Assembly: GCA_021846275.1 (NCBI GenBank)
Contig: JAJZBZ010000005.1
Location: 1 to 64,000, forward strand
Reading direction: 5' to 3'
Origin: Acidobacteriota bacterium
GTDB lineage: Bacteria; Acidobacteriota; Terriglobia; Terriglobales; Acidobacteriaceae
DNA length: 64,000 nucleotides
This document shows positions 25,754 through 48,583 of the stretch, in pieces; positions within the stretch are counted from its first letter, which is position 1; the number at the start of each line of letters is the position of its first letter. The translations under genes were made by a program, and so were the position numbers. The notes under the pieces were generated by a model. The model worked only from the letters and a program-made list of their open reading frames with translations, searched no databases and was not told the DNA's origin.

Positions 25754-26014
25754 GCGCCTCGGACAGGCGTTGTGGGAAACATCGAAGATGCCGGAATGCG
25801 TGGAACGCCGGCTGCCTGGCCCGGGATAAGGGCGGGAAAATGTAGATTCCACCATGCGGCCCTGCCATCGCGGCTCTTCACGAGTTGCCGGTGGCGGGCC
25901 GCATTTCTGCGCGGTGACGCAGGCAAAAACAAGTTTTCGGAGACTCGGACAGAGATGAGCGGAACTGCGGCGAACAGAATACGGCAGACAGAAAACCACG
26001 GAAGGAATGTTGCG

Positions 26015-29000: not shown

Positions 29001-32000
29001 GCGAGCTGCCATTGGCTGGCGGCACGATGACCGGCACGCTGAATGCTCCGGTGATCGACGGGACGACGAACTGCGCGCTTTCGCCGAGCGTGAGCGGCTG
29101 CGTGGGCGGAGCCACGTCGGCGCTGATTCCTCCGGGAACAACGGGGACGTACGCGCAGAATGCGACGATGAAAGCGACGGCGCAGTGCGTCTATGATCCG
29201 GCGCTGAATGGCGCGGTGACGTCGGTGGTTCCCGGTCAGCTTGGCCTGGGCTACACGGTGGCTCCGCTGGTGACGGTGAGCGGCGGTGGTGGCAGCGGAT
29301 TGCAGGTGACATCGAATCTGAGCAACGGGCAGGTGGTCAGCTACACGGTTTCGAGTGGAGGATCGGGGTATACGAGCTGTCCGACGATTTCGGTTGCGGC
29401 TCCGCCGGCGGCTTCGCAGCCCGTGCCGGTGCTGGATCAGCGGCGCGGAGTGACGAGCTATTCGGCGGATATTCGCGTGGATGATTTTGGCTGCGCGGGC
29501 GACGGAGTGACCGACGATACCGAGTGCTTCAACAATGCGATTGAGTTTGCGACGGGAAATGGCGCGCATGCGGGGTCGATCTCGCTGACGCAGGGCAAGA
29601 CGTACTTCATCGGCACGATTACCGGGTACATGCAGACGGCGTGGGACGACGGCACGGCGCCGAGCACGGATACCTGCGGCGGGGTTCCGTGCACGAATCT
29701 GGCACCGGAGACGCCGGGGTATCTGGGCTATGCGATTCGCATCCCAAGCGGGCAATCGACGCCGCTGACGATCTTTGGCAACGGTGCGACGATCACATCG
29801 AGTTTTTTTGGCACTGCCGTGTCGGCGACGCAGTACACGATGGCCGCGCCGTACTTTGCGATCTTTGGATCGGATGTGGGGATTTCGTCGTGGAATCTGT
29901 ATGACCTGAACATCACGCGCGCGTTCATTGGCGCGACGGCGGCTTCGGCCGCGTACTGGCAGTGGGATCGGGTGACGATGAATGGAGTGGGAATGGCCGT
30001 GCTGCTGGGGTCATCACAGTTCGACCAGTTCGACAACCTGAATCTGCAGGGGATGATGTCGGGGCTGATTATCGGCGGATGGTGGAAGACGCGCGCGCCG
30101 AACACGAGCACAGAGGGCGCGGCGGTGTTGAATGACTATAACCTCGGCGATGAGACGAGTGTGGACGGGATTCTTTTTTACGGCTCCAACTGGCCGACGC
30201 AGGCACAATCGCAGGCGGCGCAGAATGCGCTGGATACATGGTTCAACACGTACTTTTTTCATGTGCAGGACAACCAGACACGGCTGACGGACCAGAACAA
30301 GGCTCCGGCGGGAGGGGTGACGGATTCGCTGTGGCGCGGCGTGTATCACGTGATGCTGGCCACCTATTCGCGTTATTACCGTTCCGTGAATGACGTGCTT
30401 GTGCGCAATGCGACTGTGAAGTTTATCCAGAACTATCCGATCGTTGCGACGGCGGCGACGGGATGGACGATCGACACGATCAGTACGGAGAACGTGGGTT
30501 GGTGCGATGCAAACAGCAGCTTTGGAGCGTATGGTTCGTCGAGTTGCCCGAATCCGTATGACAGCGTGAACAACGAGCTGGCGGGCGCGGTGCTGCTCTA
30601 CGACTTCCAGAACGTGACGGCGCGCAACATCGGCGTGGGCGGCTCGCCGATTGCGGACTCGATTGCGGAGCCGCCGCAGGTGAGCGCGGCGCAGCAGTTG
30701 AGCGATTTTCGAACGTATCTGACGAATGTGGAGAGCGGAGCCGCGTCGGCGATTGTGCCGCTGACGCAGCCGGTGACGACGACGCGGTTTCGCATCGGCC
30801 CTTCGACGGGAACAGCGATGCCGGGCGAGGTCAATTTTGACTCCGGAGAGCTGTGCCTGCAGGGGGTGATTGGCGGGTATGGGGATGAATGGTGCCTGCG
30901 CGCGGCCGACGGGCTGAATGAGAGTGCGAACCAGCCGCCGCGCTACTTTGTGCTGGAGAATGACGGATACAGCGGGTTGCAGGGGCAGACGGCGGTGCAG
31001 ATGCCGGGGTTGCGCGTGCGTTCTGGGTTGATCAGCGCTTCGGATGCGACGCTGCCGGTGACGGATTTTGCCGAGCAGGCGTTTGCGATTGCGGGTGGAA
31101 CGGTGAGTCCGCAGAGCTGCGCGACGGTGCCGGGCATTGCACTGGCGAATGCGGCGGCGACGGACGGAATTCTGTTTGTGGCTCCGCCGACAAGCGCGAA
31201 CGGGTTGCAGTTGAGCGGAGCGGTGACGGCGGCGGGAACGATGGCGCTGACGGCCTGCAATCCGACGACGGCTGTGGCGAGTTATCCGGCGGGGACGTAT
31301 CGGGCGTTTCTGCTGGCCGGCGCGGTGCCGACGGCGACACCGGCGACGACGGGCGGGACGGTGACGGCGACGGCATCGCTGACCGAGAGCGAGGGCGATC
31401 TGGTGGTGGGCGGTGCGAACGGGAATCCGACGCGGCTGCCGGGGAACAGTTCGACGACACCGGCGCTGCTGGTGGACGTGGGCAATGGCACGGGCGCGTT
31501 TGTGCCGACGTGGGAGTCGGCTCCGCAGCTTGCCGGGGGAAATCTGACGGGGCTGAATGCGAGCAACATTACGACGGGCACGCTGGCGCTGGCCGAAGGC
31601 GGAACCGGCGCGACGACCGGAGCGCAGGCGCTGGCGAATCTGGGCGGCGCGAATCTGGCGGCGGCGGTGACTGCCTTCAGCGGAGCGCTGACGGCGAAGA
31701 CGCTGGGCGGGCTGACGCAGACCGATCAGGAGAGTGGAGCGAACTTTGGAGCGCAGCTTGCGGCCTGCGTGGCGGGGCTGCCGGCGACGGGCGGAATCTG
31801 CGACGCGAGGAATTACAGGGGATCGCAGACGATCAGCGCGGCGGTGACGATTGGAGTCTCGAATACGCGCGTGGACCTGCCGTGCGCGACGATCACGATG
31901 ACGGCTCCGATTGTGATTCCGGCGGGAGTGCGCGACGTGAAACTGCATGGCTGCGCGCTGCGCGGAGGAACGACGGCGAGCGGAGCGACGGGCGGCACGG

Positions 32001-34882: not shown

Positions 34883-36487
34883 ATGAAAGGCGGGACAGGG
34901 ACGCGAGGCGGACAGCAGGCGAGGACGAGCGGAGTGACGGCGGAGACGAAACGGCTGGAGGCGAAACGGTGGCAGCGCGAGGAGCGTGACAGGAGGGAAC
35001 TGGAGCGGTTTGGCGAGCATCTGGATGAGGCGCATCCGCTGCTGGACGGGCGGACGCCGCTGGTGTTTCTGGCCGAGAAGATGCTGAAGGTGAGGGGCAG
35101 GGATGGCCGGTTGCACAGGCTGAGTCCGAATGCGGCGCAGAGGGCGTTTGAGGCCGAGCGCGGAGCGGCGAACATTGTGCTGAAGGCCAGGCAGATGGGG
35201 ATGACGACATGGGTTGCAGGGCGGTTTCTGCTGAAGACGGTGACGAGGCCGGGGACGCTGACGCTGCTGGTGGCGCATACGCAGGATGCTGCGGAGGAGA
35301 TTCTGCGGATTGTGCATCGGTTTGTGGAGCATCTGCCGCCGTGTCTGACGCGGGGAGTGCTGGTGACGGACAGGCAGAATGTGAGGCAGATCGCGTTTCC
35401 GAAGATGGACGCGGAGTTTCGCGTGGTGAGCGCGGCGGACAGGAATGCGGGACGCGGGATGACGGTGCAGAATCTGCATTGCTCGGAGGTTTCGCGATGG
35501 CCGGGCGATGGAGCCGAGACGCTGGCCGGGTTGCGGGCATGCCTGGCGCCGAGGGGGTCGGAGCTGGTGATGGAATCGACGCCGAACGGGGCGAGCGGAT
35601 GCTTCTATGACGAGTGGATGCGGGCGCCGGAGACGGGCGTGGTGCGGCATTTTTTTCCGTGGTGGATGGAGGCCGGGTATCGGGCTGAGGAGGTGGACGA
35701 GGATTCGGTGACGGACGAGGAGATGGAGCTGATGTTCGATCACGGTCTGGATCTGGGGCAGCTGGGATATCGGAGGCGGATGCTGGCGGAGCAGGGCGCG
35801 CTGGCGCGGCAGGAGTTTGCCGAAGACGCGGAGCGGTGTTTTCTGGTTTCCGGCGAAATGTACTTTGACCGCGAGGCGGTGGAGCGGCGGCTGGCCGAGC
35901 TGGGCGAGCCGACGGAGCGGGAACGGAATGGCAGGCTGGAGTTGTATCTGCCGCCGGTGATGGGAAGGCGATATGTGGTGGCTGTCGATCCGGCGGGCGG
36001 CGGCGCGGATGGGGATTACTCGGCGATCGAGGTGATTGACCTGGAGAGCGGGATCCAGTGCGCGGAGTTTGCGGCGCATGTGGGCGGGATCGAGCTGGCG
36101 CAGCAGGTGGCATCGCTGGCGCGGCGGTATAACGAGGCTCCGGTGGTGGTGGAGCGGAATAATCATGGGGCGGCGGTGATTGTGGCGCTGGGCGAGAGCG
36201 TGGGCTATCACGAGCTGTGGACGGCGCGGGATGGGCAGCCGGGATGGCTGACGACGACGCTGACGCGGCCGGCGATTCTGGCGCGGATGGCGGCGGTGGT
36301 GATGGAGAGTCCGGAGTGTTTGCGGAGCCGGGGGCTGCTGATGGAGTGCCGGAGCTTTGTGCGGCTGGCGAATGGTAATGTGGGCGCGCGCGGCGGGACG
36401 CATGATGATCGCGTGATGGCGATGGCGATTGCGCTGGCGGCGCGGGAGCAGATGTTGGGTGGGCGATCGGGGAAACGGGGACGGTAA
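34883..36487 (+). CDS. Phage terminase large subunit
   Basis: This 534-residue DNA-packaging motor has an N-terminal ATPase with the adenine/Walker A-like segment NIVLKARQMGMTTWVAGRF (near residues 93-112). The coupling motif STPNG lies in VMESTPNGASGCFYDEW. The C-terminal RNase-H-like nuclease has acidic residues in YVVAVDPAGGGADGDYSAIE (near 358), VVVERNNHG (near 415) and HDDRVMAMAIAL (near 510). All key acidic positions are present, so both ATPase and nuclease look intact. It is the first gene of the virion module. No small terminase is evident next to it. Confidence 0.93.
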   Translation: MKGGTGTRGGQQARTSGVTAETKRLEAKRWQREERDRRELERFGEHLDEAHPLLDGRTPLVFLAEKMLKVRGRDGRLHRLSPNAAQRAFEAERGAANIVLKARQMGMTTWVAGRFLLKTVTRPGTLTLLVAHTQDAAEEILRIVHRFVEHLPPCLTRGVLVTDRQNVRQIAFPKMDAEFRVVSAADRNAGRGMTVQNLHCSEVSRWPGDGAETLAGLRACLAPRGSELVMESTPNGASGCFYDEWMRAPETGVVRHFFPWWMEAGYRAEEVDEDSVTDEEMELMFDHGLDLGQLGYRRRMLAEQGALARQEFAEDAERCFLVSGEMYFDREAVERRLAELGEPTERERNGRLELYLPPVMGRRYVVAVDPAGGGADGDYSAIEVIDLESGIQCAEFAAHVGGIELAQQVASLARRYNEAPVVVERNNHGAAVIVALGESVGYHELWTARDGQPGWLTTTLTRPAILARMAAVVMESPECLRSRGLLMECRSFVRLANGNVGARGGTHDDRVMAMAIALAAREQMLGGRSGKRGR

Positions 36488-36490
36488 GCA

Positions 36491-36581
36491 GCAGGGGTCA
36501 GGGATCAGTCGTCAGGGATCAGGGATCAGGGGTCAGGGGATCGTTGTGGCTGACGACTGACGACTGACCACTGACGACTAT
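36491..36581. repeat. Inverted heptamer arrays after terminase
   Basis: About seven GTCAGNN-type units start 4-6 bp after the terL stop. After a 10-bp centre come five CTGACNA-type units. The arrangement is a near-perfect example of the two-armed form. Confidence 0.85.
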
Positions 36582-36636
36582 TTCGTTGGGGCGGGTAGAA
36601 TCCGGAGTAGCGCGGCGAGTGATGGAGTGAGCGCGC

Positions 36637-37458
36637 TTGACGGGGGACGAGCGGACTTTGGCGGTTCAGGCGGTGCAGCAGATTCGGCGGATGCGAGGCG
36701 GAGCGCAGGGGCAGTTGATGCTTGGCTCCGATGGGCGGCTGTATGTGGTGAAGTTTCGCAACAATCCTCAGCATGAGCGGGTGTTGGCGAATGAGATGCT
36801 GGCGACGCGGCTGGCGGCTTCGGCGGGATTGTCGGTGCCGGAGACGGAGGTGGTGGAGGTTTCGGCGTGGCTGGTGGAACACTCGCCGGAGCTGACGGTG
36901 GACCTGGGACGGCGGCGGGAGCCGTGCGCGTCGGGTCTGAACTTTGGAGCGCGGTATGTGGGCGGGCTGATGCCGGGGCAGGTGGTCGATTATCTGCCGG
37001 AGGAGCAGTTGGGCGAGGTGAGGAATCTTGGCGAGTTTGCCGGGATGCTGGCGCTGGACAAGTGGACGGGGAATGCGAACGGTCGGCAGGCGGTGTTTAC
37101 GCGCTCGGCGCGGGAGCGGCGGTATACGGCGGTGTTTATCGACCAGGGATTTTGCTTTCACGCCGGGGAGTGGAAGTTTGAGGATGCGCCGCTGCGCGGG
37201 GTGTATCCCAGGAATGCGGTGTATGCGCGGGTGACGGGATGGGAGAGTTTTGAGCCGTGGCTGAGCCGGATGGAGGCGATGGCTGTGGAGCAGATATGGC
37301 AGACTGCCGAGACGATTCCGCCGGAGTGGTATGGCGGGGATGTGGGCGAGATGGAACGGCTGGTGGAAGCGCTGGACCGGCGGCGGGTGAGGATTCGGGA
37401 ACTGGTGGAGGAATTTGGAAAAACGGAACGAAGGCCGTTTGGAGGATGGAAAAAGTGA
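36637..37458 (+). CDS. HipA-like kinase domain protein
   Basis: The protein has 273 residues. YVVKFRNNPQHERVLANEML (near residues 37-56) fits the ATP-binding lobe lysine and following helix of the HipA-like (HipA_2) kinase family. The catalytic-lobe segment ALDKWTGNANGRQAVF (near 138-153) and VFIDQGFCF follow. Where HipA-type kinases usually have Asp in the NxD-type catalytic loop this reads NAN, so activity is uncertain. The start is TTG. A DUF3037 gene follows after 85 bp, and the two families often occur together. The pair is inserted between terminase and portal, a position used for phage cargo genes. Confidence 0.72.
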   Translation: MTGDERTLAVQAVQQIRRMRGGAQGQLMLGSDGRLYVVKFRNNPQHERVLANEMLATRLAASAGLSVPETEVVEVSAWLVEHSPELTVDLGRRREPCASGLNFGARYVGGLMPGQVVDYLPEEQLGEVRNLGEFAGMLALDKWTGNANGRQAVFTRSARERRYTAVFIDQGFCFHAGEWKFEDAPLRGVYPRNAVYARVTGWESFEPWLSRMEAMAVEQIWQTAETIPPEWYGGDVGEMERLVEALDRRRVRIRELVEEFGKTERRPFGGWKK

Positions 37459-37542
37459 AAGGGTGGCGGTGAGGACGGGGGTAGGATAAGGGTTGGAGCG
37501 TGCTTTGGGAGGTATTTCGGAGACAGGCTCTGGTCGAGTGGA

Positions 37543-38454
37543 ATGACGATGAATGGCCGTATGGAGTGCGAATTTTCCCTGCTGCGGTATGTGCCGGACC
37601 CGGTGCGCAATGAGTTTGTGCATATCGGGGTACTGCTGCGCGCGGCGAGTGGGGCGAGTGCTGTTGGCCCGCGGCGCGTGATCGGGGTGAAGTTTACGGC
37701 GGACTGGCGTCGGGTGCGGTGTCTCGATCCGGAGGCGGATACGGAGATGCTGGAGGCGCTCGAAGCCGAACTGCGACGACGGTTTTTGGCGGAGTCGGAA
37801 TCCGCGACGGAGGGGAATCTGATGCACGTGCTGGAGGATTCGTTTTCCAACTGCGTGCAGATGAGCGAGTCGCGTGGGTATCTGGCCGAGAGTGTCGAGG
37901 CCGGGATTGAGGAGCTGATGCGGCTCTATGTGGAGCCGCAGCGGCGCGAGCGGTTGAGCCGGGCCAGCGGCCGGGCGGCGATTCAGGGCGCGATGCGCGG
38001 GGAGTTTGAGCGTGTGGGCGTGTGGGATCTGATGCGGAAGCGGATTCCGGCCTCGCAGTATACGCGGCCGGGCGATCCGCTGCGGCTGGATTGCGGCTAT
38101 CGCGCGGGCGCGAACGGGAGCAGCCTGGTGAGGATCTTTCACGCGGTGAGCCTGGAGCATCTGGGCGGCGCGGGCGGCGGGATGGGTGTGGAGATGGCCA
38201 AGGTGCTGGCGTTTTCCGCCGCTGGCCTGCGGGCAGGAGTGGAGCGCGTCGAACACGCGGCGCTGGAGCTGACGGCGGTGGTCGAGCCGTGGACGAAGTT
38301 TGCCGCGCGGAAGGCGCAGGACGAGGATTTCGCCGATCGCGAAGGCGCGTATCGGTTTGCCGTGGAGACGATGGAGGAGCATGCGATTCGCGTGCGCACG
38401 ACGACGGAGCTGGCGGCCCTGGCGGAGACGGCGCGCGTGGAGTTGAGGGTGTGA
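37543..38454 (+). CDS. DUF3037 domain protein
   Basis: This 303-residue protein has the DUF3037 family start (MECEFSLLRYVPDPVRNEFV, then HIGVLLRA). The rest is mixed alpha/beta, with VGVWDLMRKRIPASQYTRPG and a Gly-rich AGGGMGVEMAK stretch. Its function is unknown; the family is commonly encoded beside HipA-like kinases, as here. No membrane segment or signal is visible. A heptamer array begins at its stop codon and a strong terminator follows, so the HipA-like/DUF3037 pair may be a transcription unit of its own inside the virion module. Confidence 0.78.
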   Translation: MTMNGRMECEFSLLRYVPDPVRNEFVHIGVLLRAASGASAVGPRRVIGVKFTADWRRVRCLDPEADTEMLEALEAELRRRFLAESESATEGNLMHVLEDSFSNCVQMSESRGYLAESVEAGIEELMRLYVEPQRRERLSRASGRAAIQGAMRGEFERVGVWDLMRKRIPASQYTRPGDPLRLDCGYRAGANGSSLVRIFHAVSLEHLGGAGGGMGVEMAKVLAFSAAGLRAGVERVEHAALELTAVVEPWTKFAARKAQDEDFADREGAYRFAVETMEEHAIRVRTTTELAALAETARVELRV

Positions 38455-38672
38455 CAGGGGTCAGTCGTCAGGGGTCGGTGGTCAGGGGTTAGTGGTCAGT
38501 CGTCAGGCTTGATGGTGAATGGCTGCTGACAACCGATTCCTGACGACTTGCTGCTGACAGGCAGATTGGGAATGACAACAGGAAAGGCAACAGCAACGGT
38601 TAAGGCAACAGCGCAGGCGAGGGTCAAGGCAGTGGTGTTACTGATCCCTGACGACTGACTGCTGACAACTTG
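38455..38672. repeat. Compound heptamer arrays with partial family B element
   Basis: GTCAGNN units begin right after the DUF3037 stop. Complementary CTGACNN units occupy about 38522-38557. A decayed family B element (GGGAATGACAACAGGAAAGGCAAC type) lies near 38572-38600, and a second CTGACNN array ends near 38670. Confidence 0.8.
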
Positions 38673-38682
38673 TAGCGTACGG

Positions 38683-38721
38683 AGCGGGCTTGGACATGGC
38701 GTCCAGGCCCGCTTTGTTTTT
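38683..38721 (+). terminator. Rho-independent terminator inside the virion module
   Basis: AGCGGGC-TTGGAC and GTCCAG-GCCCGCT form a long stem with a short loop, followed by TTGTTTTT. It separates the HipA-like/DUF3037 pair from the portal gene, which starts 64 bp later. Confidence 0.8.
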
Positions 38722-38784
38722 GGCGGCAGGCAGTGAAGCAATGAGCAACGGCGCGCGCAGTGCGCGGGAAGGGATGGAAAAGAC

Positions 38785-40086
38785 GTGAAGGCAACGGAGC
38801 AACTGCGGGCGATGTGGGAGGGATGGTTTGGTTCGGATGGGCGCGCGAGCGGCGGACGTGGAGCGCAGAAGCGGAGGGACGATGGGCTGGCCGAGCGGCG
38901 GACGATTGCCATGCCGACGATTGTCTCGCCATACGGATACGGCGCGGGGACGACATCGGCGATGCCGAAGCCGACGCAGATGAATCTGCGCCGGTTTGCC
39001 GAGACGCCGGTGGTGCGGCGCGCGATGAACGTGATCAAGGATCGGATTGTGGCGATGGACTGGCAGGTTCGCGTGCGGCGCGGAGCCAGCGAAGAGGAGA
39101 TTGGGCATGCGCGGCGGAAGGTGAGGGCGCTGCGAAGGATGCTGGAAGAGCCGAATGAGTCGGATAGTTTTCGCACGCTGCTGGAGCAGGTGATTGAGGA
39201 CGCGCTGACGGGCGGCTATGGGGCGATCGAGATGGAGCGCACGGACGATCCACACCGGCCGGCGATGTTGTGGGCGGTGGATGGATCGACGATTCGAGTG
39301 AATGCGAAGTGGAGCGGGGATGTGGAGGAGCCGCGCTACGAGCAGGTGCCGATGGGGCGCTCCGTGCAGGAGGCGATTCAACTGCGGGATGACCAGTTGC
39401 TGTATCTGCGGATGAATCCGAGGAGTTTTACGCCGTTTGGGCTGGGTCCGCTGGAGGTGGCGTTTGAGACGGTGAATGAGCTGCTGAGCGCGCATCGGTT
39501 TGCGGGCAAGCTGGCGGCGAATACGGTGGTGCAGTATGCGCTGTGGCTGAACGAGGCGACGCCGAGCCAGCATGAGCGGATCATTCGCTGGTGGCAGGAC
39601 GAGATTGAAGGCACGGGGCGCGTGCCGCTGATCTCAACCGAGCAGAAGCCGGAGGTACTGCGGTTTGCGCAGGGCACGGATGCGGATATGCGGTTGCAGT
39701 GGCAGACGTTTCTGATCCGGCTGATTGCCGATGCCTTCGGGCTGCCGCCACTGCTGCTGGGCCTCGAAGCGGATGTGAATCGGTCGACGGCGGCGGAGCT
39801 GACGGATGAGGCGTTTCGGTCGGCGATTGCGCCGCTGGCGCGGCGGGTGGAAGAGCATATCACGCGCGACATCTTCGGCAAATGCGTGGGCTGGCGCGAG
39901 TTTGAGTTCATCTTCAACGACCTGAGCGCGGCGGATGCGCAGACGGAGCTGGCGATGCAGGTGCAACTGTTGCAGGCCGGTGTGTTGACGGTGAATGAGG
40001 TGAGGGCGATGCGCGGGCTGAGTCCGCTGGAGCCGGGCGGGAAGGCTCCGCTGGCGGCCTCTGGATGCGGGCGCGACGACGGGTAG
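38785..40086 (+). CDS. Phage portal protein (HK97-like)
   Basis: This 433-residue portal subunit would form the 12-mer ring through which DNA enters the capsid. Typical segments are RFAETPVVRRAMNVIKDRIV, the loop PFGLGPLEVAFETVNELL (near 213), and DAFGLPPLLLGLEADVNRST (near 316). The C-terminus is helical and ends with NEVRAMRGLSPLEPGG. It starts at GTG 38785 after GGGATGGAA. The order terminase, portal, protease, capsid matches HK97-type tailed phages. Confidence 0.9.
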   Translation: MKATEQLRAMWEGWFGSDGRASGGRGAQKRRDDGLAERRTIAMPTIVSPYGYGAGTTSAMPKPTQMNLRRFAETPVVRRAMNVIKDRIVAMDWQVRVRRGASEEEIGHARRKVRALRRMLEEPNESDSFRTLLEQVIEDALTGGYGAIEMERTDDPHRPAMLWAVDGSTIRVNAKWSGDVEEPRYEQVPMGRSVQEAIQLRDDQLLYLRMNPRSFTPFGLGPLEVAFETVNELLSAHRFAGKLAANTVVQYALWLNEATPSQHERIIRWWQDEIEGTGRVPLISTEQKPEVLRFAQGTDADMRLQWQTFLIRLIADAFGLPPLLLGLEADVNRSTAAELTDEAFRSAIAPLARRVEEHITRDIFGKCVGWREFEFIFNDLSAADAQTELAMQVQLLQAGVLTVNEVRAMRGLSPLEPGGKAPLAASGCGRDDG

Positions 40087-40094
40087 TGGCGCGG

Positions 40095-40187
40095 AGTCAG
40101 GGGTCAGTTGTCAGGGATCAGTTGTCGGGGGTCAGTCGTCAGGGGGTCGCGGCGGTGCAATGCTGACGACTGATCCCTGACGACTTG
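40095..40187. repeat. Inverted heptamer arrays after portal
   Basis: GTCAGNN units begin about 10 bp after the portal stop, with complementary CTGACGA/CTGATCC units at about 40163-40185. The pattern matches the other gene-end arrays. Confidence 0.8.
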
Positions 40188-40221
40188 TTTGTGGGTGGTG
40201 AATCGGGACGGGGGAGGGTGA

Positions 40222-40722
40222 ATGCGACTGGATGCGATGTCAGTGAAGATTCCACCGGTGAAGGGGCATCCGAATCGGGTGCCGTTCGAGGGTGTGTTGA
40301 CGGTGGTGGATGTGGCGAGCGACAAGGCTCCGGCGGGCGCGCGCGGGCACAGGGTGGTGTTGACGCGCGTGGCGGCGGAGGCGGCGCTGCCGAGCCTGCT
40401 GGGGATGGCGGTGGATTACCGGCCGGGATGGGACGGGCACGATGCGAAGCGGAAGATCGGCGTGATTACGGATGCCGATTTCAGCGGGCGAAAGCTGGTG
40501 GTGAAGGGCTACCTGTATGCGCGGGATTTTCCGGAGGTGATGGAGTCGATGCGTCGGGCGAAGAGCGGCACGATGGGCATGAGCTATGAGCTGGCTGACG
40601 CGCAGGTGGCGGATATGCGCGCCGAAGTCTGGCGGCTGACGCGGGCGACGTTTACGGGCGCGGCGATTCTGCTGCGCGACAAGGCGGCGTACATGGAGAC
40701 GAGCTTCCGGCTGGCAAGCTGA
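40222..40722 (+). CDS. Prohead protease candidate
   Basis: The 166-residue protein fits an HK97-family maturation protease by position (between portal and capsid) and motifs. A beta domain (VLTVVDVASDKAP) precedes a histidine in GWDGHDAKRKIG (near 73) and the serine motif GTMGMSYELADA (near 118), followed by a C-terminal VWRLTRATFTGAAIL strand region. The His/Ser pair would be catalytic. It is compact, close to the minimal family size. A strong GGGGAGGG site precedes ATG 40222. Confidence 0.75.
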   Translation: MRLDAMSVKIPPVKGHPNRVPFEGVLTVVDVASDKAPAGARGHRVVLTRVAAEAALPSLLGMAVDYRPGWDGHDAKRKIGVITDADFSGRKLVVKGYLYARDFPEVMESMRRAKSGTMGMSYELADAQVADMRAEVWRLTRATFTGAAILLRDKAAYMETSFRLAS

Positions 40723-40788
40723 AAATTCCGCAAAGCCGGGCGGAGACAACATGGGAACCAGAACAAGGAAGGAACGAAAGGAGCAACG

Positions 40789-41199
40789 ATGAACAACGAA
40801 ATGATGGCGGAACGGCTGGAAGCAGCCGCAGCGGCGCTGGAGACGGGGCTGAACCGGATCGAGGAACGGCAACGGACGCTGACCGGCGCGCTGGAGCGCA
40901 TCTCGGCGACGGTGGATGGCGACGAGGCGATGGCCGATCGACTGTCGGCTGCCGAACACGAGATCGAGCGGCTGCGCGGGGAGCTGGCGCGCATTGAGGC
41001 TTCGACGGGCATACGCACGCCGCAGCCGCTGAAGTCGCTGCGGCAGACACTGCCGAATTCGACGGTGGAGATGCTGACGAAGAATGCGCTGTCGGACTCA
41101 GCCGTGGACCTGCAGAAGCTGGACGCGGCGATGAAAGGACTGAGCCTGGAGCAGCGCATTGCGGTGAAGAGCCAGTTGCGCCGCGCCGGTTCGCTGTAG
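40789..41199 (+). CDS. Coiled-coil scaffold candidate upstream of capsid
   Basis: The product has 136 residues. Residues about 1-70 form a heptad-rich coiled coil (LEAAAAALETGLNRIEERQR), and the C-terminal half is helical with no known motif. The gene lies between prohead protease and major capsid, with AAGGAGC before its ATG, so a scaffold or separate delta-domain role is likely. The capsid protein itself lacks a long N-terminal coiled coil, which supports this. Assignment is by position and structure only. Confidence 0.6.
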   Translation: MNNEMMAERLEAAAAALETGLNRIEERQRTLTGALERISATVDGDEAMADRLSAAEHEIERLRGELARIEASTGIRTPQPLKSLRQTLPNSTVEMLTKNALSDSAVDLQKLDAAMKGLSLEQRIAVKSQLRRAGSL

Positions 41200-41212
41200 G
41201 CGCTGCGCGCAG

Positions 41213-41284
41213 GGGACAGTGGTCAGGGATCAGTCGTCAGGGGTCGGTTGTTACTGACGACTGACGGCTTTGCAGTGACAGACA
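41213..41284. repeat. Inverted heptamer arrays before capsid gene
   Basis: GTCAGNN units start about 14 bp after the scaffold-candidate stop, followed by CTGACGA units at 41254-41270. The capsid gene starts 59 bp downstream. Confidence 0.75.
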
Positions 41285-41342
41285 GGATGGACGCGTGAAG
41301 GCGCGTCCCTAACCAGGCCCGGGATCGGGCGGAAAGAGCGTT

Positions 41343-42311
41343 ATGAACATCAGTTTTGCAGACATTCATGCGGCGGCCGATTACATCGGACCTGGAGCAA
41401 TTGAAATTCCCATGTACCAGACGGAGATTTTTGACATTTGTCAGAGATCGAATCCGTTTGGTCAGCGGATCAAGCAGGTTCCGGCGACGGGCCATCCGTC
41501 GCGGTTCTTCCAGGAGACGGCGATTCCGAGCGCGGGGACGGCGTCGTTTGTGAATCCGCGGGCGATTACGCCGACGGTGGTGAGTCCGACGCGCATCGAG
41601 ATGGCGGTGCCGCTGAAGGCGCTGGTGGCGCAGATGAACTACAACCTGTTCGACGTGGAGCTGGGCAATATGCAGCAGCAGTTCGCGTACCTGCAGGCGA
41701 AGGATCTGGCCGACACGGTGAGCGGATTGATGGTGGCTCACGATGTGGCGCTGTGGAACGGCAACGACACCAGCCTGTCGGCTCCGACGACGACCCAGTA
41801 CATGGGCGTGACGGCGCAGATCGTGGCAGGCGGCAATACGACGACGGTCTCGACGACGGAGTCGATTGTGAACGGGCTGAAGACGACGGTGGCGCAGATG
41901 GTGTCCAACAGCAACTATCGCGTGAGGCCGACGGCGATCTATGCCAATCCGGTGCTGCTGGACCTGATCGACCAGGAGATGAAGACGGAGTTCAACGTGG
42001 TGTTGCGGACGGATCACATTATCGGCGGCGTGACGGTGAAGATGCTGTCGACACAGGCGGGCGACCTGCCGCTGATTCCGGACTGGAGCCTCGGATATAC
42101 GGGCACTCCGGGTTCGGGCACGGCGGTGCTGCCGGCCTACATTGTGACCGAAGACCTGATCGAGTACCACTGGCTGGGCGATCCGGCTCCACGCATCTTC
42201 GAGCTGGGATTGCCGAATTCGCTCACGCTCCAGTACGTCGCCGTGAAATTCGGTGCCGTGGTGGTCAAGGGCGCAAACTTCGCTCACTACCAGGTGCTCA
42301 TCGACCGGTAA
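41343..42311 (+). CDS. Major capsid protein candidate
   Basis: This 322-residue protein is the best major capsid candidate. It has a mostly beta HK97-like layout with an N-arm, an E-loop region (VPATGHPSRFFQETAIPSAG, near 45-65) and a long helix (YNLFDVELGNMQQQFAYLQA, then KDLADTVSGLMVAHDVALWNG, near 100-140). The ending AVKFGAVVVKGANFAHYQVL is typical of phage coat proteins that bind particle surfaces. It follows the protease and scaffold genes and is followed directly by connector genes. No sequence motif defines capsid proteins, so this rests on fold pattern and order. A structured repeat array starts immediately after its stop. Confidence 0.75.
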   Translation: MNISFADIHAAADYIGPGAIEIPMYQTEIFDICQRSNPFGQRIKQVPATGHPSRFFQETAIPSAGTASFVNPRAITPTVVSPTRIEMAVPLKALVAQMNYNLFDVELGNMQQQFAYLQAKDLADTVSGLMVAHDVALWNGNDTSLSAPTTTQYMGVTAQIVAGGNTTTVSTTESIVNGLKTTVAQMVSNSNYRVRPTAIYANPVLLDLIDQEMKTEFNVVLRTDHIIGGVTVKMLSTQAGDLPLIPDWSLGYTGTPGSGTAVLPAYIVTEDLIEYHWLGDPAPRIFELGLPNSLTLQYVAVKFGAVVVKGANFAHYQVLIDR

Positions 42312-42588
42312 GCATTGCATGCAGCAGCCACTGCGTGGGGCAGCCGCGCGCGTTGCGCGCCACGAAGGATTGTGGCGCTCGCGATGCTCGCGGCATTGCA
42401 TGCAGCAGCCGCGACCTTCGGTCGCCATGGACTTTCGTGGCGCTTCCGTTGGTCGGCATTGCATGCAGCAGCCGCGACCTTCGGTCGCCACGGACTTTCG
42501 TGGTGCTCCCGTTGGTCGGCATTGCATGCAGCAGCCGCGACCTTCGGTCGCCATGGACTTTCGTGGCGCTTCCGTTGGTCGCGTGCTG
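42312..42588 (+). repeat. Tandem array of structured family C repeat
   Basis: Four units begin with GCATTGCATGC. The first (42312-42392) is an 81-bp variant. Units 2-4 (42393, 42456, 42519) are 63 bp each and almost identical. The array begins at the base after the capsid stop codon. Each unit contains the hairpin GCGACC-TTC-GGTCGC; the first has GCGCGC-GTT-GCGCGC instead. There are no spacers, so it is not CRISPR. Confidence 0.92.
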
Positions 42589-42629
42589 GCTGCGGTGGTG
42601 GTTGATGGGAAAACACGTGGGCCATGAAG

Positions 42630-42734
42630 GGGTCAGTCGTCAGGGGTCAGGGGTCAGCGGACAGGGGATCAGCGATGCGATTGCCGGGAGCTGACAACTG
42701 ATTCCTGATCCCTGACGACTGACGCTGACAACTG
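42630..42734. repeat. Inverted heptamer arrays before connector gene
   Basis: GTCAGNN units at 42630-42670 and CTGACNN units at 42691-42734 flank an unrelated 20-bp centre. The connector gene starts 41 bp later. Confidence 0.8.
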
Positions 42735-42774
42735 GTGCTTGTGAGCGAAATGCGGGAGCGGAAAGGACTGAGGG

Positions 42775-43398
42775 ATGGCGTATCTGTTGCCTACGGATTA
42801 CACGAATTTTGGATTGCCGGCGGGGACGAGTGCGGATTGGGTGACGGCGGCGACGGCGCTGATCAACTCGTACTGTCGCAGGCCGGACATCAACATTACG
42901 CAGTACACGGAGCGTTCGCGGATTGTGAGCGGTTCGCAGACGGTGATGCTGAGTTATCTGCCGCTGGCGCCGCTGGCGCCGGCGACGAGTCCACTGGTGT
43001 CGATGCAGGGCAAGTATGCGTGGCCGCGCAGGGGCGATCTTCCTGTTGTCCCGCTGCTGGATGCGGCGCTTGCGTTTTCGCTGCCCGGGGAGTGGTCGAC
43101 GATTGATCCGACGACGGTGGATTTTGACCCGAATACGGGGATATTGACGCTGCCGTGGAACCTGATGGGTCTGCCGTACAACGAGGTTGAGGTGACGTAT
43201 ACGGCGGGGCTGGCGGTGATTGGCAACGACATCATGACGGCGTGCGCGCAGATTGTGAAGAATGCGCAGGCGCAGCCTTCGCTGAATGTGCAGCGGTCGC
43301 GGGTGGACACGATGTGGTTGCAGTACTTCGGAACGACGCTGATTGACCAGACGGTGCAGGCGCTGTTGCAGCCCTACATCGCGACCAGGCTGGGGTGA
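42775..43398 (+). CDS. Head-tail connector protein candidate
   Basis: The product has 207 residues. It begins with YLLPTDYTNFGLPAGTSADW followed by a helix (VTAATALINSYCRRPDIN), a pattern seen in gp6-like head-tail connectors that dock under the portal. A beta domain with repeated TVDFDPNTGILTL follows and the C-terminus is helical. The gene follows the capsid and overlaps the next gene by 4 bp (GTGA), so they are coupled. Confidence 0.68.
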   Translation: MAYLLPTDYTNFGLPAGTSADWVTAATALINSYCRRPDINITQYTERSRIVSGSQTVMLSYLPLAPLAPATSPLVSMQGKYAWPRRGDLPVVPLLDAALAFSLPGEWSTIDPTTVDFDPNTGILTLPWNLMGLPYNEVEVTYTAGLAVIGNDIMTACAQIVKNAQAQPSLNVQRSRVDTMWLQYFGTTLIDQTVQALLQPYIATRLG

Positions 43399-43403
43399 CG
43401 ACG

Positions 43404-43838
43404 ATGAGCGACACGGCATCACGAGAGGGGACGGCGATACCGCAGATGCTGACGGACGCGATTCTGCGGACGGTGGCGGGAACGACGGCGTATTTGCAGG
43501 TGACGGGTGTGAATCCGGACACCGAGCAGAGCGAAGTGGGACTGGTGGCGAACAACTTCCAGCAGGTGGCGATTTCGCCGGTGATGATGCGGAAGCTGCC
43601 GCCGACGTGGCAGGAAGGGAATATGTCGCGCTGGGAGATGATGCTGTCGGCGACGAGCGTGCAGGCGCAGGTGGCGTCGATGAATCTCAGTTCGGCGCAG
43701 AGCCTGTTTGCGATGACGCTATCGGTTTCGATGGCCGGGCAGAGCTACCTGATCGAGTCGATTGGCGAGAACGAGGCGATGGGGACGGTGTATCTGTATC
43801 GGCTGCTGGTGCGGGAGGCTGGCGCGGAAGCGCTGTGA
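43404..43838 (+). CDS. Small virion protein of unknown role
   Basis: The product has 144 residues from ATG 43404 (GTG 43395, which overlaps the upstream stop, would add three). It is alpha/beta with an Ala/Thr-rich first helix and strands such as TAYLQVTGVNPDTEQSEVGL, without a known motif. It lies between a connector and other small head/tail genes, so a head-completion or neck role is likely from position. A perfect 12-bp inverted repeat overlaps its stop. Confidence 0.55.
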   Translation: MSDTASREGTAIPQMLTDAILRTVAGTTAYLQVTGVNPDTEQSEVGLVANNFQQVAISPVMMRKLPPTWQEGNMSRWEMMLSATSVQAQVASMNLSSAQSLFAMTLSVSMAGQSYLIESIGENEAMGTVYLYRLLVREAGAEAL

Positions 43839-43867
43839 GCAAGGCGGCGCGTGAGCGCCGCCTTGCT
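43838..43867 (+). other. Perfect 12-bp stem-loop at a gene end
   Basis: AGCAAGGCGGCG and CGCCGCCTTGCT pair perfectly around the loop CGTGAG. The stem begins in the stop codon of the small virion gene. No T run follows, so this is more likely an mRNA 3'-end stabiliser or processing site than an intrinsic terminator. Confidence 0.8.
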
Positions 43868-43964
43868 CAGGGGTCAGTTGTCAGGGGTCAGGGATCAGGT
43901 CTGTTTTGTTGCTGACGACTGACTACTGACTACGGACGGCTGACTACGGACTACGGACGACTGA
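43868..43964. repeat. Inverted heptamer arrays before a virion gene
   Basis: GTCAGNN units follow the stem-loop directly (43869-43898). CTGACTA/CTGACGG and related CGGACTA units fill 43911-43964. The latter show drift of the heptamer from CTGACNN to CGGACNN. Confidence 0.8.
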
Positions 43965-43990
43965 GATGAGAGAGGCTGGGGAGTGGGACG

Positions 43991-44503
43991 ATGCAGAATG
44001 CGAAGGATTCGTTTTATATCGCGATGCGGACGCGGTTGCAGGCGATCAATCCGCAGCGAACGATTTTGCTGCGGTCGGCGGTGAGGCCGGGGATATTGGT
44101 GGAAGAGGCCGAGGCTCCGTTTGCGCAGCCGCCGACGGGGACGGCGTATCCGCTGATGCCGACGGATGTGTTTGTGTTGCGGTGGATGGCGCTGGCGGTG
44201 GATATGGACCAGTCTCTGCCGCTGATTGCGGCCGAGTGCGAGGTGATGTATTCGACGCTGGGGACGCAGACGTTTGGCGGGTTGGATCGCGGTCGTGCGA
44301 TGACGGAGATGGACCTGGAGCTGATGGAGATGATGTCGCCGTTTCAGACGCCGAAGTTCAACTACGCCGTCTCGCCGCCGCAGCAGATGCTGACGCAGGT
44401 GTTCTGGGATGAGCCGGTGTATACGGCGATGGTGGTGCAGCGGGACAGGCTGATGCGGTCGGCGCGAGTGATGGTGTACAGCTACCAGGAAGCGGGTGAG
44501 TGA
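43991..44503 (+). CDS. Virion protein candidate (tail completion)
   Basis: The product has 170 residues. The opening MQNAKDSFYIAMRTRLQAIN, then a central beta region (GTAYPLMPTDVFVLRWMALA), resembles minor tail/closure proteins by length and place, but no motif is recognised. It overlaps the following gene by 4 bp (GTGA), so the pair is translationally coupled. Confidence 0.55.
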   Translation: MQNAKDSFYIAMRTRLQAINPQRTILLRSAVRPGILVEEAEAPFAQPPTGTAYPLMPTDVFVLRWMALAVDMDQSLPLIAAECEVMYSTLGTQTFGGLDRGRAMTEMDLELMEMMSPFQTPKFNYAVSPPQQMLTQVFWDEPVYTAMVVQRDRLMRSARVMVYSYQEAGE

Positions 44504-44505
44504 GG

Positions 44506-45534
44506 ATGGCGACAGCGAGCACGTATTGGGCGGCGGCGCCGGTGGTGCGGCGGGTGCGGGCGTACTTCGCGCCAGTGAATCGGACGGCAGGGACACCGAT
44601 GCTGTTCGACGCGTCGGAGCAGGGGGCGTTCAATCTGAACGCTCCTCCGGCGCCGTGGATTTCGCTGGGGTGGATACGGGATTTTGTGAGGAAGCCGATG
44701 GGCAAGCTGGTGCCGGTGGTGACGGGGATGCCGCCGACGGTGCTGGAGCAGAGCTGGGAGCTGCTGGATGCGCAGGTTTCGTTTCAGTTTCTGAGCTGGA
44801 CGAAGCTGACGATGGCGCTGGCGGCGGCGAGCCAGCATATGAACCTGCTGCTGCCGATGTCGGGCGCGACGGCCTCACCGGATGGAGCGACGGCGGTGCC
44901 GGCGGTGACCGTGGAGCCGGGCGGGACGGCGACGTTTCTGCCGATGGCGCAGGCGGATGCGGCGACGTTTACGGCGGGTCAGATGGTGGCCGTCGATGTC
45001 GATTACACGGGGCAGACGGGGTTTGTGGGTTCGGGGGTGAGCGGGTCGTATGTGAAGACGGCGCTGACGGATGTGAACTACATTCGGCGGGTGACGTATA
45101 ACGTGGCGCGGATTGAAGAGGTGACGACGGCGGGGCTGCAACTGGCGGAGCCGCTGATTGCCGGAGCACCGGCGACGGGGATGAAGGCGCAGGCGCTGCT
45201 GGGGTTTGTGGATCGCGAGGGCGGAACGTTCTTTCCGGAGTGGTCGGGATTGTTTGTGCTGGAGGGCAGCCAGGGCGAGCGGATTTTTTATTTCTACCCG
45301 AGGTTGCAGCCTGTGGTGGGATCGACGGAGAAGCCGCTGGTGCCGTCAAAGCCGACACCGCTGGAGGTGGAGGAGCGGTTGAAGCCGGTGGTGGTGACGC
45401 CGAAGTACCAGGGGACGCTGGAACAGATGCCGCTGACGGCGCTGTGCCGGGCGCTGCCGATTACGGATCCGCTGGATGGGGAGCTGGTGCTTTGCTACAG
45501 GAGCTTTTTGCCGGCGGGGAATGCGCTGATTTGA
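44506..45534 (+). CDS. Tail tube/virion structural protein candidate
   Basis: The product has 342 residues from ATG 44506 (GTG 44500 overlaps the previous stop and is an alternative). It is beta-rich with long non-repetitive strands (FNLNAPPAPWISLGWIRDFV, VTVEPGGTATFLPMAQADAA). It also has repeated VDREGGTFFPEWSGLFVLEG-like segments and a Pro-rich hinge KPTPLEVEERLKPVVV. The pattern suits a tail tube or other structural protein. No family can be named. Confidence 0.55.
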   Translation: MATASTYWAAAPVVRRVRAYFAPVNRTAGTPMLFDASEQGAFNLNAPPAPWISLGWIRDFVRKPMGKLVPVVTGMPPTVLEQSWELLDAQVSFQFLSWTKLTMALAAASQHMNLLLPMSGATASPDGATAVPAVTVEPGGTATFLPMAQADAATFTAGQMVAVDVDYTGQTGFVGSGVSGSYVKTALTDVNYIRRVTYNVARIEEVTTAGLQLAEPLIAGAPATGMKAQALLGFVDREGGTFFPEWSGLFVLEGSQGERIFYFYPRLQPVVGSTEKPLVPSKPTPLEVEERLKPVVVTPKYQGTLEQMPLTALCRALPITDPLDGELVLCYRSFLPAGNALI

Positions 45535-45935
45535 GTCGTCAGGGGTCAGGGGTCAGGGGTCAGTGGTCAGAGGTCAGGGGTCAGTCGTGTCGTCGCTGAT
45601 GACCCGAGGACTTGTTTCTGACGGCTGACGGCTGAAAAGCAGATTCCCTGCGGGAATGACAACCAAGAAAAGCATTGCATGCGGCAGCCGCGCGCTTTGC
45701 GCGCCACGGACGGTTGTGGCACTCCCGCTGGTCGCGGGTGGGCGCTTGCTGAGGCTGATGGGAACAGCAGATTCCCTTCGGGAATGACAACAGGAAAAGC
45801 AACGGCAAACACAACAGCAAAGGCAAAAACTACGGAAAAGCCAAGGCAAGTGCAAGGTCTTTGCTGACGACTGACGACTGGTGACTGACGACTGGTGACT
45901 GACGGCTGGTGACTGACGGCTGGTGACTGATGGAA
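45535..45935. repeat. Composite repeat cluster (families A, B, C)
   Basis: Heptamer units start right after the stop at 45534 and run to about 45630. Family B with TTCCC-TGC-GGGAA is at about 45640-45672. A family C unit (GCATTGCATGC, hairpin GCGCGC-TTT-GCGCGC) begins at 45674. A second family B element with TTCCC-TTC-GGGAA is at about 45767-45800. An AGCAAC/GGCAAA-rich tail follows, then CTGACNN units to about 45935. Confidence 0.9.
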
Positions 45936-45964
45936 CGCGAGATGGGGTGGAGGAGCGCGCGGCG

Positions 45965-48331
45965 ATGAAGGTGATGATCAACAATGTGGATTATTCGGCG
46001 GCGCTGGATAGTGTGCATCCGATGACGCTGGAGCGGAAGCTGAACGAGCCGACGGTGTGTCAGCTTTGGGTGACGCTGGGGCGCGCGAGCACGTTGCCGA
46101 CGCCCGCGCGGAATCAGCCGGTGTTGATTGAGGGGGATGACGGGACGTTGTATTTCACGGGGTATCTGGCGGTGGCTCCGCTGCCGGAGTTTGCCGGAGT
46201 GGGGACGGCGGGACCGATTTATCGCTGGGCGCTGCAGGCGGTGAGCGATGAGATGGTGCTGAATATGCAGCCGATGACGCCGAGCGCTGGGCTGACGGGA
46301 GTGACGGCGGGCGAGGCGATGCAGACGCTGGCGGCCCATGCGGGCGTGACGGGACTGGGCGCGGCGATTCCGCTGAGCGTGAGCGGGCTGGGAGTGGCGT
46401 CGATGGCGCTGCCGGTGGGGAATTTTGTGCCGGATCCGGGATCGAACTGGAGCCAGGCGGCGGGTCTGGTGGCGGCGCAGGCGCGGGCGAGCTATCGCGC
46501 GGTGGGCGGGCAGATTACCGCGCAGCCGGTGGGGACGACGGTGCATGAGTTGAACGAGACGAATGGGACGCTGGTGCTGAGCAACCTGACGATGACGGCG
46601 ACGGTGGAGCGGGCGCTGGCCAACGACGTGACGGTGTGTGGCGGAAGCGAGCCGTGGGCGTATGTGACGGAGTATCTGCTTGGCGATGGGGTGACGAAGA
46701 CGTTTCAGTTGAACGAAGACCCGTTTTTCGAGACGACGGCGGAAGAGAAGATTATCAACAACGAGCTGTTCAACGAGCCGGCGATCAATGTGCAGAACTG
46801 GATGTTCACGGGCGCGGAGGAGTATTTTTCGCTGACGGGAGCGGGGTTGACGATCAATGGCGGAACGGGTGTGGACGGACAGGCGGCGCTGGTGTGGCGG
46901 GATGCGGTGGAGGCGGGTGGATCGCTGTATCTGGAGCTGATCGGGGTGACGCTTTCGCCGGGGAGCACGGGGATTGTGGGCGGGTTGTATGGGAATGGGG
47001 TGAATCAGGCGGGTTGCATTGCGGGGTTTCTGGTGGAGTCGGCGCAGGGAACGGGCGCGGTGTCCCTGGTGCCGCTGGTGAACGGAGTGGTGGCGGGGCC
47101 GGCGTATGCGGTGCAGACGGGGACGCAGTATACGCTGCGGGCGCGGGTGTGGTGTCCGCTGACGGAGCGTGTGACGCAGGTGTATCGGGTGGTGGGCGAC
47201 GCGGGCGCGATGAGCTTTGGCGGCGAGGATCAGATTGCCGGAGCGTCGATTGTGCTGGAGCTGGTGCCGGTGGTGAATGGGATTGCGGGAACGCCGGTGC
47301 CGCTGTATGACGGGTCGGTGGAGTATGCGCCGGGGAGCTATCAGGTGTGCGTGGCCAATAGCTGGAATCTGATTGGTTCGGTGCGCAGCGTGTACATGAC
47401 GAATCTGGGATCGGGCTGGGTGAGGAGCATGCCGCCGGGCGAGCAGATGGCGACGCGGAGGACGGGAACGATTGCCGAGGGCGGCGAATGCCACCTGCTG
47501 CGGACGGGGACAATTACGTTTTATACGGGGTATATTCCGGTGCTGGGCGAGTTGATTCAGGTTCAGTATCGGACGGTGGGGACGGCGGTGGGAAGGTGGG
47601 TGAACGAGGCGAGCCAGGCGGCGATGGAGGCGGTGGGAATGCCGGCGACGGCGCAGTGGATCGGGAGCGTGACGAATCCGAAGGCGAGGTCGAGCGCGGA
47701 TTGCCGGAACGCGGCAGAGGCGCTGGGAACGGCGGCGTCGAGCGTGAGCGCGGCGTGGGCGGGGACGTACAAGGTGGCCAGCGCGAACTGGGCGACGGGG
47801 CTGACGAGCGATGTGTGGCCTGGCGACGAGATGCTGCTGACGGCGCCGAGCGCGAACCTGAACGAGCAGGTGGCGGTGAGGACGGTGAAGCTGACGTACA
47901 AGCCGGGGACGCCGGACGTGATGAACTACGAGATCAGCTTTGCCAATGACTGGGCGAATGACCTGGCGGTGAAGACGTCGAAGACGGTACCGGTGACGGC
48001 GTGGCTGCCGGCGCTGATTGCGCCGACGTATCTGGCGGATGTGACGACGCTCCAGGTGACGACGATCGGAGCGGCGGAGCTGACGGTGAATGCGGGAGTG
48101 ACGCCGCCGACGGGAGGCGGGTTCGAGGTGAGGCGCAGGGACTTCAGCTTTCAGGCGGGAACGGATGCGGACCTGGTGATCCGCTCGACGGTGCCGGTGT
48201 TTCAGATTCCACGCGAGACGGAGGCGGATGCGTTTTATATACGGATGTATGACGGATCGACGCCGCCGAATTATTCGGAGCACTCGGTGGCGCTGTATGT
48301 GAATCTGCCGCTGGCGGCACAGGCGGTTTGA
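45965..48331 (+). CDS. Large tail/baseplate protein candidate
   Basis: The product has about 788 residues from ATG 45965, chosen because GGAGGAG sits 9 nt upstream; the open frame begins 14 codons earlier. The N-terminus (MKVMINNVDYSAALDSVHPM) and the following beta barrel with FTGYLAVAPLPE resemble baseplate hub domains. The central part has a carbohydrate-binding-like beta sandwich (residues about 285-480, with GVTLSPGSTGIVGGLYGN). The C-terminus has fibronectin-like strands (LQVTTIGAAELTVNAG). It is the largest virion-module gene apart from the giant protein. No tape-measure features (long coiled coil) are present. Confidence 0.6.
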   Translation: MKVMINNVDYSAALDSVHPMTLERKLNEPTVCQLWVTLGRASTLPTPARNQPVLIEGDDGTLYFTGYLAVAPLPEFAGVGTAGPIYRWALQAVSDEMVLNMQPMTPSAGLTGVTAGEAMQTLAAHAGVTGLGAAIPLSVSGLGVASMALPVGNFVPDPGSNWSQAAGLVAAQARASYRAVGGQITAQPVGTTVHELNETNGTLVLSNLTMTATVERALANDVTVCGGSEPWAYVTEYLLGDGVTKTFQLNEDPFFETTAEEKIINNELFNEPAINVQNWMFTGAEEYFSLTGAGLTINGGTGVDGQAALVWRDAVEAGGSLYLELIGVTLSPGSTGIVGGLYGNGVNQAGCIAGFLVESAQGTGAVSLVPLVNGVVAGPAYAVQTGTQYTLRARVWCPLTERVTQVYRVVGDAGAMSFGGEDQIAGASIVLELVPVVNGIAGTPVPLYDGSVEYAPGSYQVCVANSWNLIGSVRSVYMTNLGSGWVRSMPPGEQMATRRTGTIAEGGECHLLRTGTITFYTGYIPVLGELIQVQYRTVGTAVGRWVNEASQAAMEAVGMPATAQWIGSVTNPKARSSADCRNAAEALGTAASSVSAAWAGTYKVASANWATGLTSDVWPGDEMLLTAPSANLNEQVAVRTVKLTYKPGTPDVMNYEISFANDWANDLAVKTSKTVPVTAWLPALIAPTYLADVTTLQVTTIGAAELTVNAGVTPPTGGGFEVRRRDFSFQAGTDADLVIRSTVPVFQIPRETEADAFYIRMYDGSTPPNYSEHSVALYVNLPLAAQAV

Positions 48332-48353
48332 GGCGGAGCGAAGGAGCGACGGG

Positions 48354-48581
48354 ATGCGGATGATGAATGAGTTTGAGGCGCAGGTGCTGAGCGACCTGAG
48401 CGTGCTGAAGGCGCAGATGGTGGGACTGGTGGGCGATGGCAGCTCGGGACGGATCTGCGAGCTGGAGCGGCGGATGGAACGACACGAACAAAACTGGCAG
48501 CGGGCGCGGGGGTTCATGGCGGCGATGAGCGTGCTGATGGCGGTGGTGGAAGTGGCGATTGAGACCTGGCGGCGGCACTGA
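48354..48581 (+). CDS. Small XhlA-like membrane protein
   Basis: The product has 75 residues. The N-terminal 45 form a coiled coil (DLSVLKAQMVGL, ELERRMERHEQNW). One membrane helix follows (GFMAAMSVLMAVVEVAI, about 53-69) with a short basic tail. This layout matches XhlA/holin-accessory proteins that close phage tail operons. No endolysin gene is adjacent. Repeat DNA begins 3 bp after its stop. Confidence 0.6.
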   Translation: MRMMNEFEAQVLSDLSVLKAQMVGLVGDGSSGRICELERRMERHEQNWQRARGFMAAMSVLMAVVEVAIETWRRH

Positions 48582-48583
48582 GG

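Follow-up and report, generated by a model that had tools for sequence, protein, structure and literature searches.

A vertically inherited virion gene locus in Acidobacteriaceae, candidate for a domesticated particle resembling a gene transfer agent

A run of intact virion genes with no recognisable integrase raises the question of whether it is a phage, the remains of one, or a particle that the host keeps for itself. Such a run is found in the window analysed here, which covers the initial 64 kb of contig C7 in an Acidobacteriaceae genome of 3.34 Mb. The original prediction, made from the letters of the window, offered a domesticated particle, a decayed prophage or a satellite. A gene transfer agent (GTA), as defined in PMC9662315, has caudoviricete-derived proteins that form caudovirion-like particles, which encapsidate mostly random host DNA. 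In the same definition, its genome is fully endogenized, its own genes are incompletely packaged owing to a small head, inheritance is mostly vertical with host co-diversification, and the packaged DNA reaches other cells. The locus itself is already in print. Eichorst 2018 (PMC5900883) grouped regions of T. gabretensis, Terriglobus, and Koribacter as prophage "Cluster 153", which was called a potentially new viral group and likely active; the section on the cluster omits vertical inheritance. The T. gabretensis S55 region of that cluster (contig 10, 700-740 kb, Figure 3B of that paper) contains the module described below, with the capsid gene at ~725,157 (L125). No GTA claim for Acidobacteria was found among the open-licence PMC papers listed. 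Here, the locus is read as vertically inherited and kept by the host.

Gene content of the virion module

The original prediction described intact, co-oriented virion frames at 34883-48581, and the ORF list of the window bears this out: the main frames of this interval are unbroken and all lie on the forward strand (Table 1). The gene naming stood in part. TerL, portal, and head-tail adaptor are backed by profile matches and the tail tube by its fold, and the capsid is named by position and conservation, with no clear family. The module content had to be redrawn. The HipA-like and DUF3037 genes inside it are not virion genes, and the spike frame before terL, which had been overlooked, belongs to the module.

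Table 1. Regulator and module genes in the window
Feature	Coordinates	Strand	Basis or remark
Sigma-70 region-4-like protein, 186 aa, putative activator	16287..16847	-	Divergent from Cro/CI-type gene; Sigma70_r4_2
Cro/CI-type HTH regulator, 240 aa, putative repressor	17577..18299	+	HTH_26; C-terminus weakly S24/LexA-like
Spike/adhesin-like protein, pectate-lyase-like domains, 2958-aa frame	25772..34648	+	PF12708; position before terL
Terminase large subunit (TerL)	34883..36487	+	phrog_2, E 6.8e-30
HipA-like kinase	36637..37458	+	PF20613, E 6.2e-11; PDC-M66A, E 2.4e-9
DUF3037 protein	37543..38454	+	PF11236, E 2.3e-18; PDC-M66B, E 6.7e-6
Portal, HK97 type	38785..40086	+	PF04860, E 1.7e-54
Probable prohead protease	40222..40722	+	Invariant H73/S121; between portal and capsid
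Short protein, probable scaffold	40789..41199	+	Precedes capsid; weak matches only; 47/51 loci
Probable major capsid protein	41343..42311	+	Position, conservation
Head-tail adaptor	42775..43398	+	phrog_442, E 2.2e-15
Neck protein g10	43395..43838	+	45/51 loci; no family match in Pfam or PHROG
Neck/tail-completion protein g11	43991..44503	+	49/51 loci; no family match in Pfam or PHROG
Tail tube protein	44500..45534	+	Predicted fold
Large protein g13, 802 aa, probable tail hub/tip	45923..48331	+	Directly after tail tube
Small protein with a coiled coil and a single membrane segment; by eye, holin/XhlA-like	48354..48581	+	Directly after g13

Motifs of TerL that we take to be those of the ATPase and the nuclease are preserved across 20 genomes; in some genomes of the family, TerL is split or carries a stop inside the match. 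The portal also matches TIGR01537 (E 3.7e-18, below the cut-off of that model). H73 and S121 of the protease candidate, presumably the protease motif, are invariant in 20 aligned rows, and the Pfam scan of this protein gave no match. The capsid candidate is the most conserved gene of the module (67-85% identity, 15 relatives). Its best PHROG match is phrog_264, "major head protein" (E 0.005, 1/16 members), and an AF2 prediction from 25 rows reached a pLDDT of only 34. Because the family match is unclear and the structure prediction poor, the capsid label rests on position and conservation.

The tail tube was modelled by AF2 with a pLDDT of 73 and a pTM of 0.71. The top Foldseek match of the model is 9n71, a phage tail tube (E 5.6e-10), and phage tail proteins fill the top rows of VIA-align, with Z up to 11.8. 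PDB profile searches with the capsid, protease, and hub candidates yielded nothing usable, and that with the tail tube yielded two chance-level rows. The hub candidate g13 is 57-59% identical across five congeners, and none of its 25 members searched had a PHROG match. The small protein after it had no match in the Pfam scan. The absence of a tape measure noted in the original prediction was confirmed: g13 directly succeeds the tail tube gene, and no gene of tape-measure size lies between the two in the window or in relatives. A tape measure, an endolysin, and a small terminase were not recognised within the locus. These may be encoded elsewhere, or the particle may be non-functional.

The spike frame matches PF12708 (E 3.4e-9) and, below cut-off, End_N_terminal (E 0.0015), and the gene sits before terL in 20/20 loci. 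Its probable ATG is at 26015, and the N-terminus is hydrophobic and signal-peptide-like in the window and in several relatives. Such a start is odd for a virion part that is built in the cytoplasm. Judged by this N-terminus, the protein might instead be a secreted adhesin or receptor.

The HipA-like and DUF3037 proteins match the candidate defence pair PADLOC PDC-M66A/B, and each is found in 50 of the 51 distinct loci considered below. In G128 and G148, the pair adjoins purE without virion genes.

The gaps between module genes at 42307-42615, 43865-43978, and 45527-45930, and the gap at 48578-49033, contain short-repeat families, with 63-nt spaced units and CTGACGACTGAC-type runs. They look like strain-level intergenic repeats, not attachment sites.

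Distribution, chromosomal site, and inheritance

Relatives of TerL occur in 112/200 Acidobacteriaceae genomes, covering 51/79 genera. In a draw from the order, the capsid profile matched at least 179/298 genomes (at least 161 of the 251 high-quality ones) and at least 46/70 genera; all the order-draw matches listed are Acidobacteriaceae, and stop codons were seen in none of the capsid rows among the matches listed. A draw from the phylum gave the capsid in 35/396 genomes, every one Acidobacteriaceae. The portal had two matches beyond the family, at 25-26% identity, compared with at least 51% within it. The best 80 of 193 loci are all titled Acidobacteriaceae or Acidobacteria. Genera named in these titles include Terracidiphilus, Acidobacterium, Acidipila, Paracidobacterium, Bryocella, Granulicella, Edaphobacter, Silvibacterium, and Terriglobus. 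As a rule, a genome has one locus. The original prediction would have been refuted by a module confined to this strain, and a family-wide occurrence was found instead.

Synteny, which the original prediction proposed to examine, is well preserved. Gene order, for the genes that were found, is collinear in 20/20 genomes chosen from the best TerL matches. L058 is without the HipA-like, DUF3037, and g10 genes, and neither g10 nor g11 was matched in L055. Where terL, portal, and g13 could all be seen, which was the case in 51 distinct loci, the remaining module genes are each present in 45 to 51. The common chromosomal site adjoins purE-purK. Among 71 distinct loci with enough sequence, counted after removal of duplicates, purE lies no more than 2.5 kb downstream of g13 in 49, and 7 of the 22 loci without a near purE carry sucB, the next gene, instead. 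In the genome of the window itself, purE is on a different contig, and the adjacency is lost. The small coiled-coil gene directly follows g13 in 64 of the 71 loci. It was not found after g13 in L048, L049, L051, L052, L056, L135, L139, and L149, where the same spot is occupied by a protein of 93 aa that is unrelated to it and may be another holin. A permuted order, in which the genes for protease through tail tube come ahead of those for spike through portal, was seen in L142, L153, L155, L064/L312, L065, and L066/L311.

Genomes that lack the capsid were examined at the same site. Of these, 14/15 matched purE; with the G316 fragment left out, 13 sites remained, and relics of the module were found at the purE site in 7/13. 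The C-terminal end of g13 and the small gene remain in G151, a congener; the small gene remains in G095, G227, and G222; the HipA-like and DUF3037 genes remain in G128 and G148; and one or both regulators remain in G227, G222, and G220. Since relics were left behind, the absence is secondary, at least in these lineages.

Host and module phylogenies were compared in 20 genomes, with the single gene rpoB as the host tree and seven proteins as the module tree. G102 was excluded, having no rpoB match, and rpoB of G101 is split and partial. The two trees have 13/17 splits in common, against a mean of 0.25 and a maximum of 3 in 2000 label shuffles. Patristic distances are correlated with a Mantel r of 0.885 (0/2000 permutations); these p values and the bootstrap supports take related genomes as independent. 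All rpoB splits with bootstrap of at least 95 are present in the module tree. One well-supported module group, of G047, G066, and G117, is absent from the rpoB tree. Nei-Gojobori dN/dS, likewise named as a check in the original prediction, was computed for nine pairs, in some of which dS is saturated; it spans 0.006-0.43 over the whole gene set, and the capsid stays at 0.006-0.10. By these ratios, every module gene tested is under purifying selection.

The regulator pair

No repressor had been seen in the original prediction. This has to be corrected, as a Cro/CI-type gene and a divergent sigma-70-region-4-like gene lie upstream of the spike gene (Table 1). The former matches HTH_26 at E 1.6e-7 and the latter Sigma70_r4_2 at E 6.9e-5, below the Pfam cut-off. 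Relatives of the HTH regulator are present in at least 153/200 genomes of the family and those of the sigma-like gene (sigma4) in 147/200. Of the 112 genomes with TerL, 106 have sigma4 and 100 the HTH gene. The association of sigma4 with TerL has an odds ratio of 20 and a p of 7e-15, a value that is too small because the genomes are related. Distances were taken in 70 of the 100 genomes that have both HTH gene and terL, each with the two on one contig; in 65 of these 70 cases, the HTH gene is 3-18 kb upstream of terL, and in 60 of the 65 it is on the opposite strand. In relatives, the pair usually adjoins the module upstream. In the window, it is rearranged to 16.3-18.3 kb, at least 7 kb before the spike gene. 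In the permuted loci, where the protease gene leads the virion genes, the sigma-like gene lies upstream of it and so once more precedes the first of them. As a regulator is also present in 58 genomes in which TerL was not matched, the regulators may have other targets.

The C-terminal half of the Cro/CI-type regulator was aligned over its length with S24 domains of LexA from the same family by hhalign (E 3e-4, probability 40%); two unrelated proteins used as controls gave 0.2% and 0.45% (range 0.2-0.5%). For the regulator, a profile search of the PDB found HTH domains alone, and the S24 reading thus rests on hhalign and on inspection by eye. In all 16 rows of alignment A2, the residue just ahead of the MxP motif is not Ser and an Arg stands at the place of the Lys, with the Ser-Lys/MxP motif placed where we assume it to be. 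Because the S24-like half is without the usual Ser and Lys, we infer that the regulator would not be cleaved in the SOS response.

Intergenic 12-mers between the two regulator genes are common to up to 7/19 related loci, where shuffled sequences gave 3 at most. The candidate operator motif has 4 sites in the window against a shuffle mean of 2.2, which is no enrichment. An operator between the regulators is therefore not claimed, the loci being related and the motif unenriched in the window.

Known systems and alternative explanations

The intact gene set, the purE site, the co-divergence with the host, the purifying selection, and the relics left in place argue that the module is very probably a domesticated virion locus maintained by its Acidobacteriaceae hosts. 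Among the readings of the original prediction, this one is thus favoured by synteny, dN/dS, and host co-divergence. The locus probably works like a GTA, that is, as a particle that would move DNA between cells. In the scheme that we propose, a few cells would relieve the Cro/CI-type repression, and the sigma-region-4-like protein would switch the cluster on. The terminase would then load the heads with host DNA; a small terminase that could steer it towards the locus's own DNA was not recognised. The holin-like protein, together with host enzymes, would lyse the cell. The particle would deliver its DNA to kin, which it would bind via the variable spike; its tail may be very short or measured differently, as the locus has no recognised tape measure.

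Two of the six defining features of GTAs are seen in this locus: an endogenized genome (purE as neighbour, no integrase in the locus among the matches listed) and vertical inheritance (splits shared with rpoB, Mantel correlation). Of the proteins, TerL, portal, adaptor, and tail tube are similar to those of caudoviricetes. With this count, the locus is not filed as a GTA. A tailocin was ruled out, TerL, portal, and capsid all being conserved. Like the module, RcGTA (alphaproteobacterial type I, Rhodogtaviriformidae) is described in PMC9662315 as an endogenized, vertically inherited head-tail cluster of caudoviricete origin that co-diverges with its hosts and is often annotated as a prophage. 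By description, the module is set apart from RcGTA by its phylum, a capsid without a Pfam match, the HipA-like and DUF3037 genes inside it, and a cluster with neither tape measure nor endolysin. FpGTA of Faecalibacterium (PMC12946183) is likewise GTA-like outside Alphaproteobacteria and without replication genes, and is reported there as genus-wide. Particles of FpGTA have been seen by microscopy. According to the same source, FpGTA is probably podovirus-like and has two operons with the lysis genes in the second; the module instead encodes a tail tube. Whether the Acidobacteriaceae hold an independently evolved GTA lineage in most of their genera, marked by an uncleavable Cro/CI-type repressor, a sigma-like activator, a tail tube without tape measure, and a candidate defence pair in the operon, is about an even chance.

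A DNA-packing particle kept by the host to kill competitors, with no gene transfer, is an unlikely alternative that would be expected to show identical gene content. Its model is PBSX of Bacillus subtilis, described in PMC12946183 as a defective particle that packs host DNA, injects none, and acts as a tailocin; its likeness to the module is one of description, and the same paper considers behaviour like that of PBSX for FpGTA. The variable spike would suit strain-specific killing, and the candidate defence pair within the cluster also speaks for this alternative. However, the packaging genes, the capsid foremost, are the most constrained of the module, and killing by tails has no need of them; no immunity gene was recognised. 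Considerably less probable is a family of ordinary prophages with an integration site near purE, whose integrase and early genes were lost or went unrecognised. The original prediction found no integrase in the 64 kb, and this stands for tyrosine integrases, the only PF00589 match of the contig being at 224.7 kb. Integrases inside the locus or beside its virion genes were also absent among the matches listed for 16 related genomes. Of 50,697 phage records, none matched the capsid, and the 20 matches listed for TerL in these records are at 24-29% identity. A prophage is further at odds with a host-congruent tree and with a common site that holds relics. In its favour are the published account of Cluster 153 as likely active (PMC5900883) and 21 relatives of the portal in IMG/VR, mostly on short contigs, one of which also has the regulator pair.

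A functionless remnant of a decayed prophage, conserved by chance, would explain why tape measure, endolysin, and small terminase are missing, and also the broken TerL or deletions of some relatives. It is highly improbable with a dN/dS well below 1 for all genes, no capsid stops among the matches listed, and a presence in at least 46/70 genera. Least probable is a satellite that borrows the parts of a helper phage. Unlike satellites that are without most virion genes, the module encodes a capsid, a portal, and a terminase of its own, and it is inherited vertically; what it has in common with a satellite is that integrase and replication genes are missing.

If the domesticated, GTA-like reading is true, cultured hosts with names (Terracidiphilus gabretensis, Acidipila rosea, Bryocella elongata, and others) would allow a direct test of gene transfer by particles among soil bacteria. 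Published "active prophages" and contigs of viral collections can then be host genes. Finding GTAs without similarity to known ones is named as a problem in PMC11841831, and site, tree, relic, and selection tests together offer a way to find them. In the Sphagnum virome of PMC12142844, a shared contig is reported to match an Acidobacteriaceae genome.
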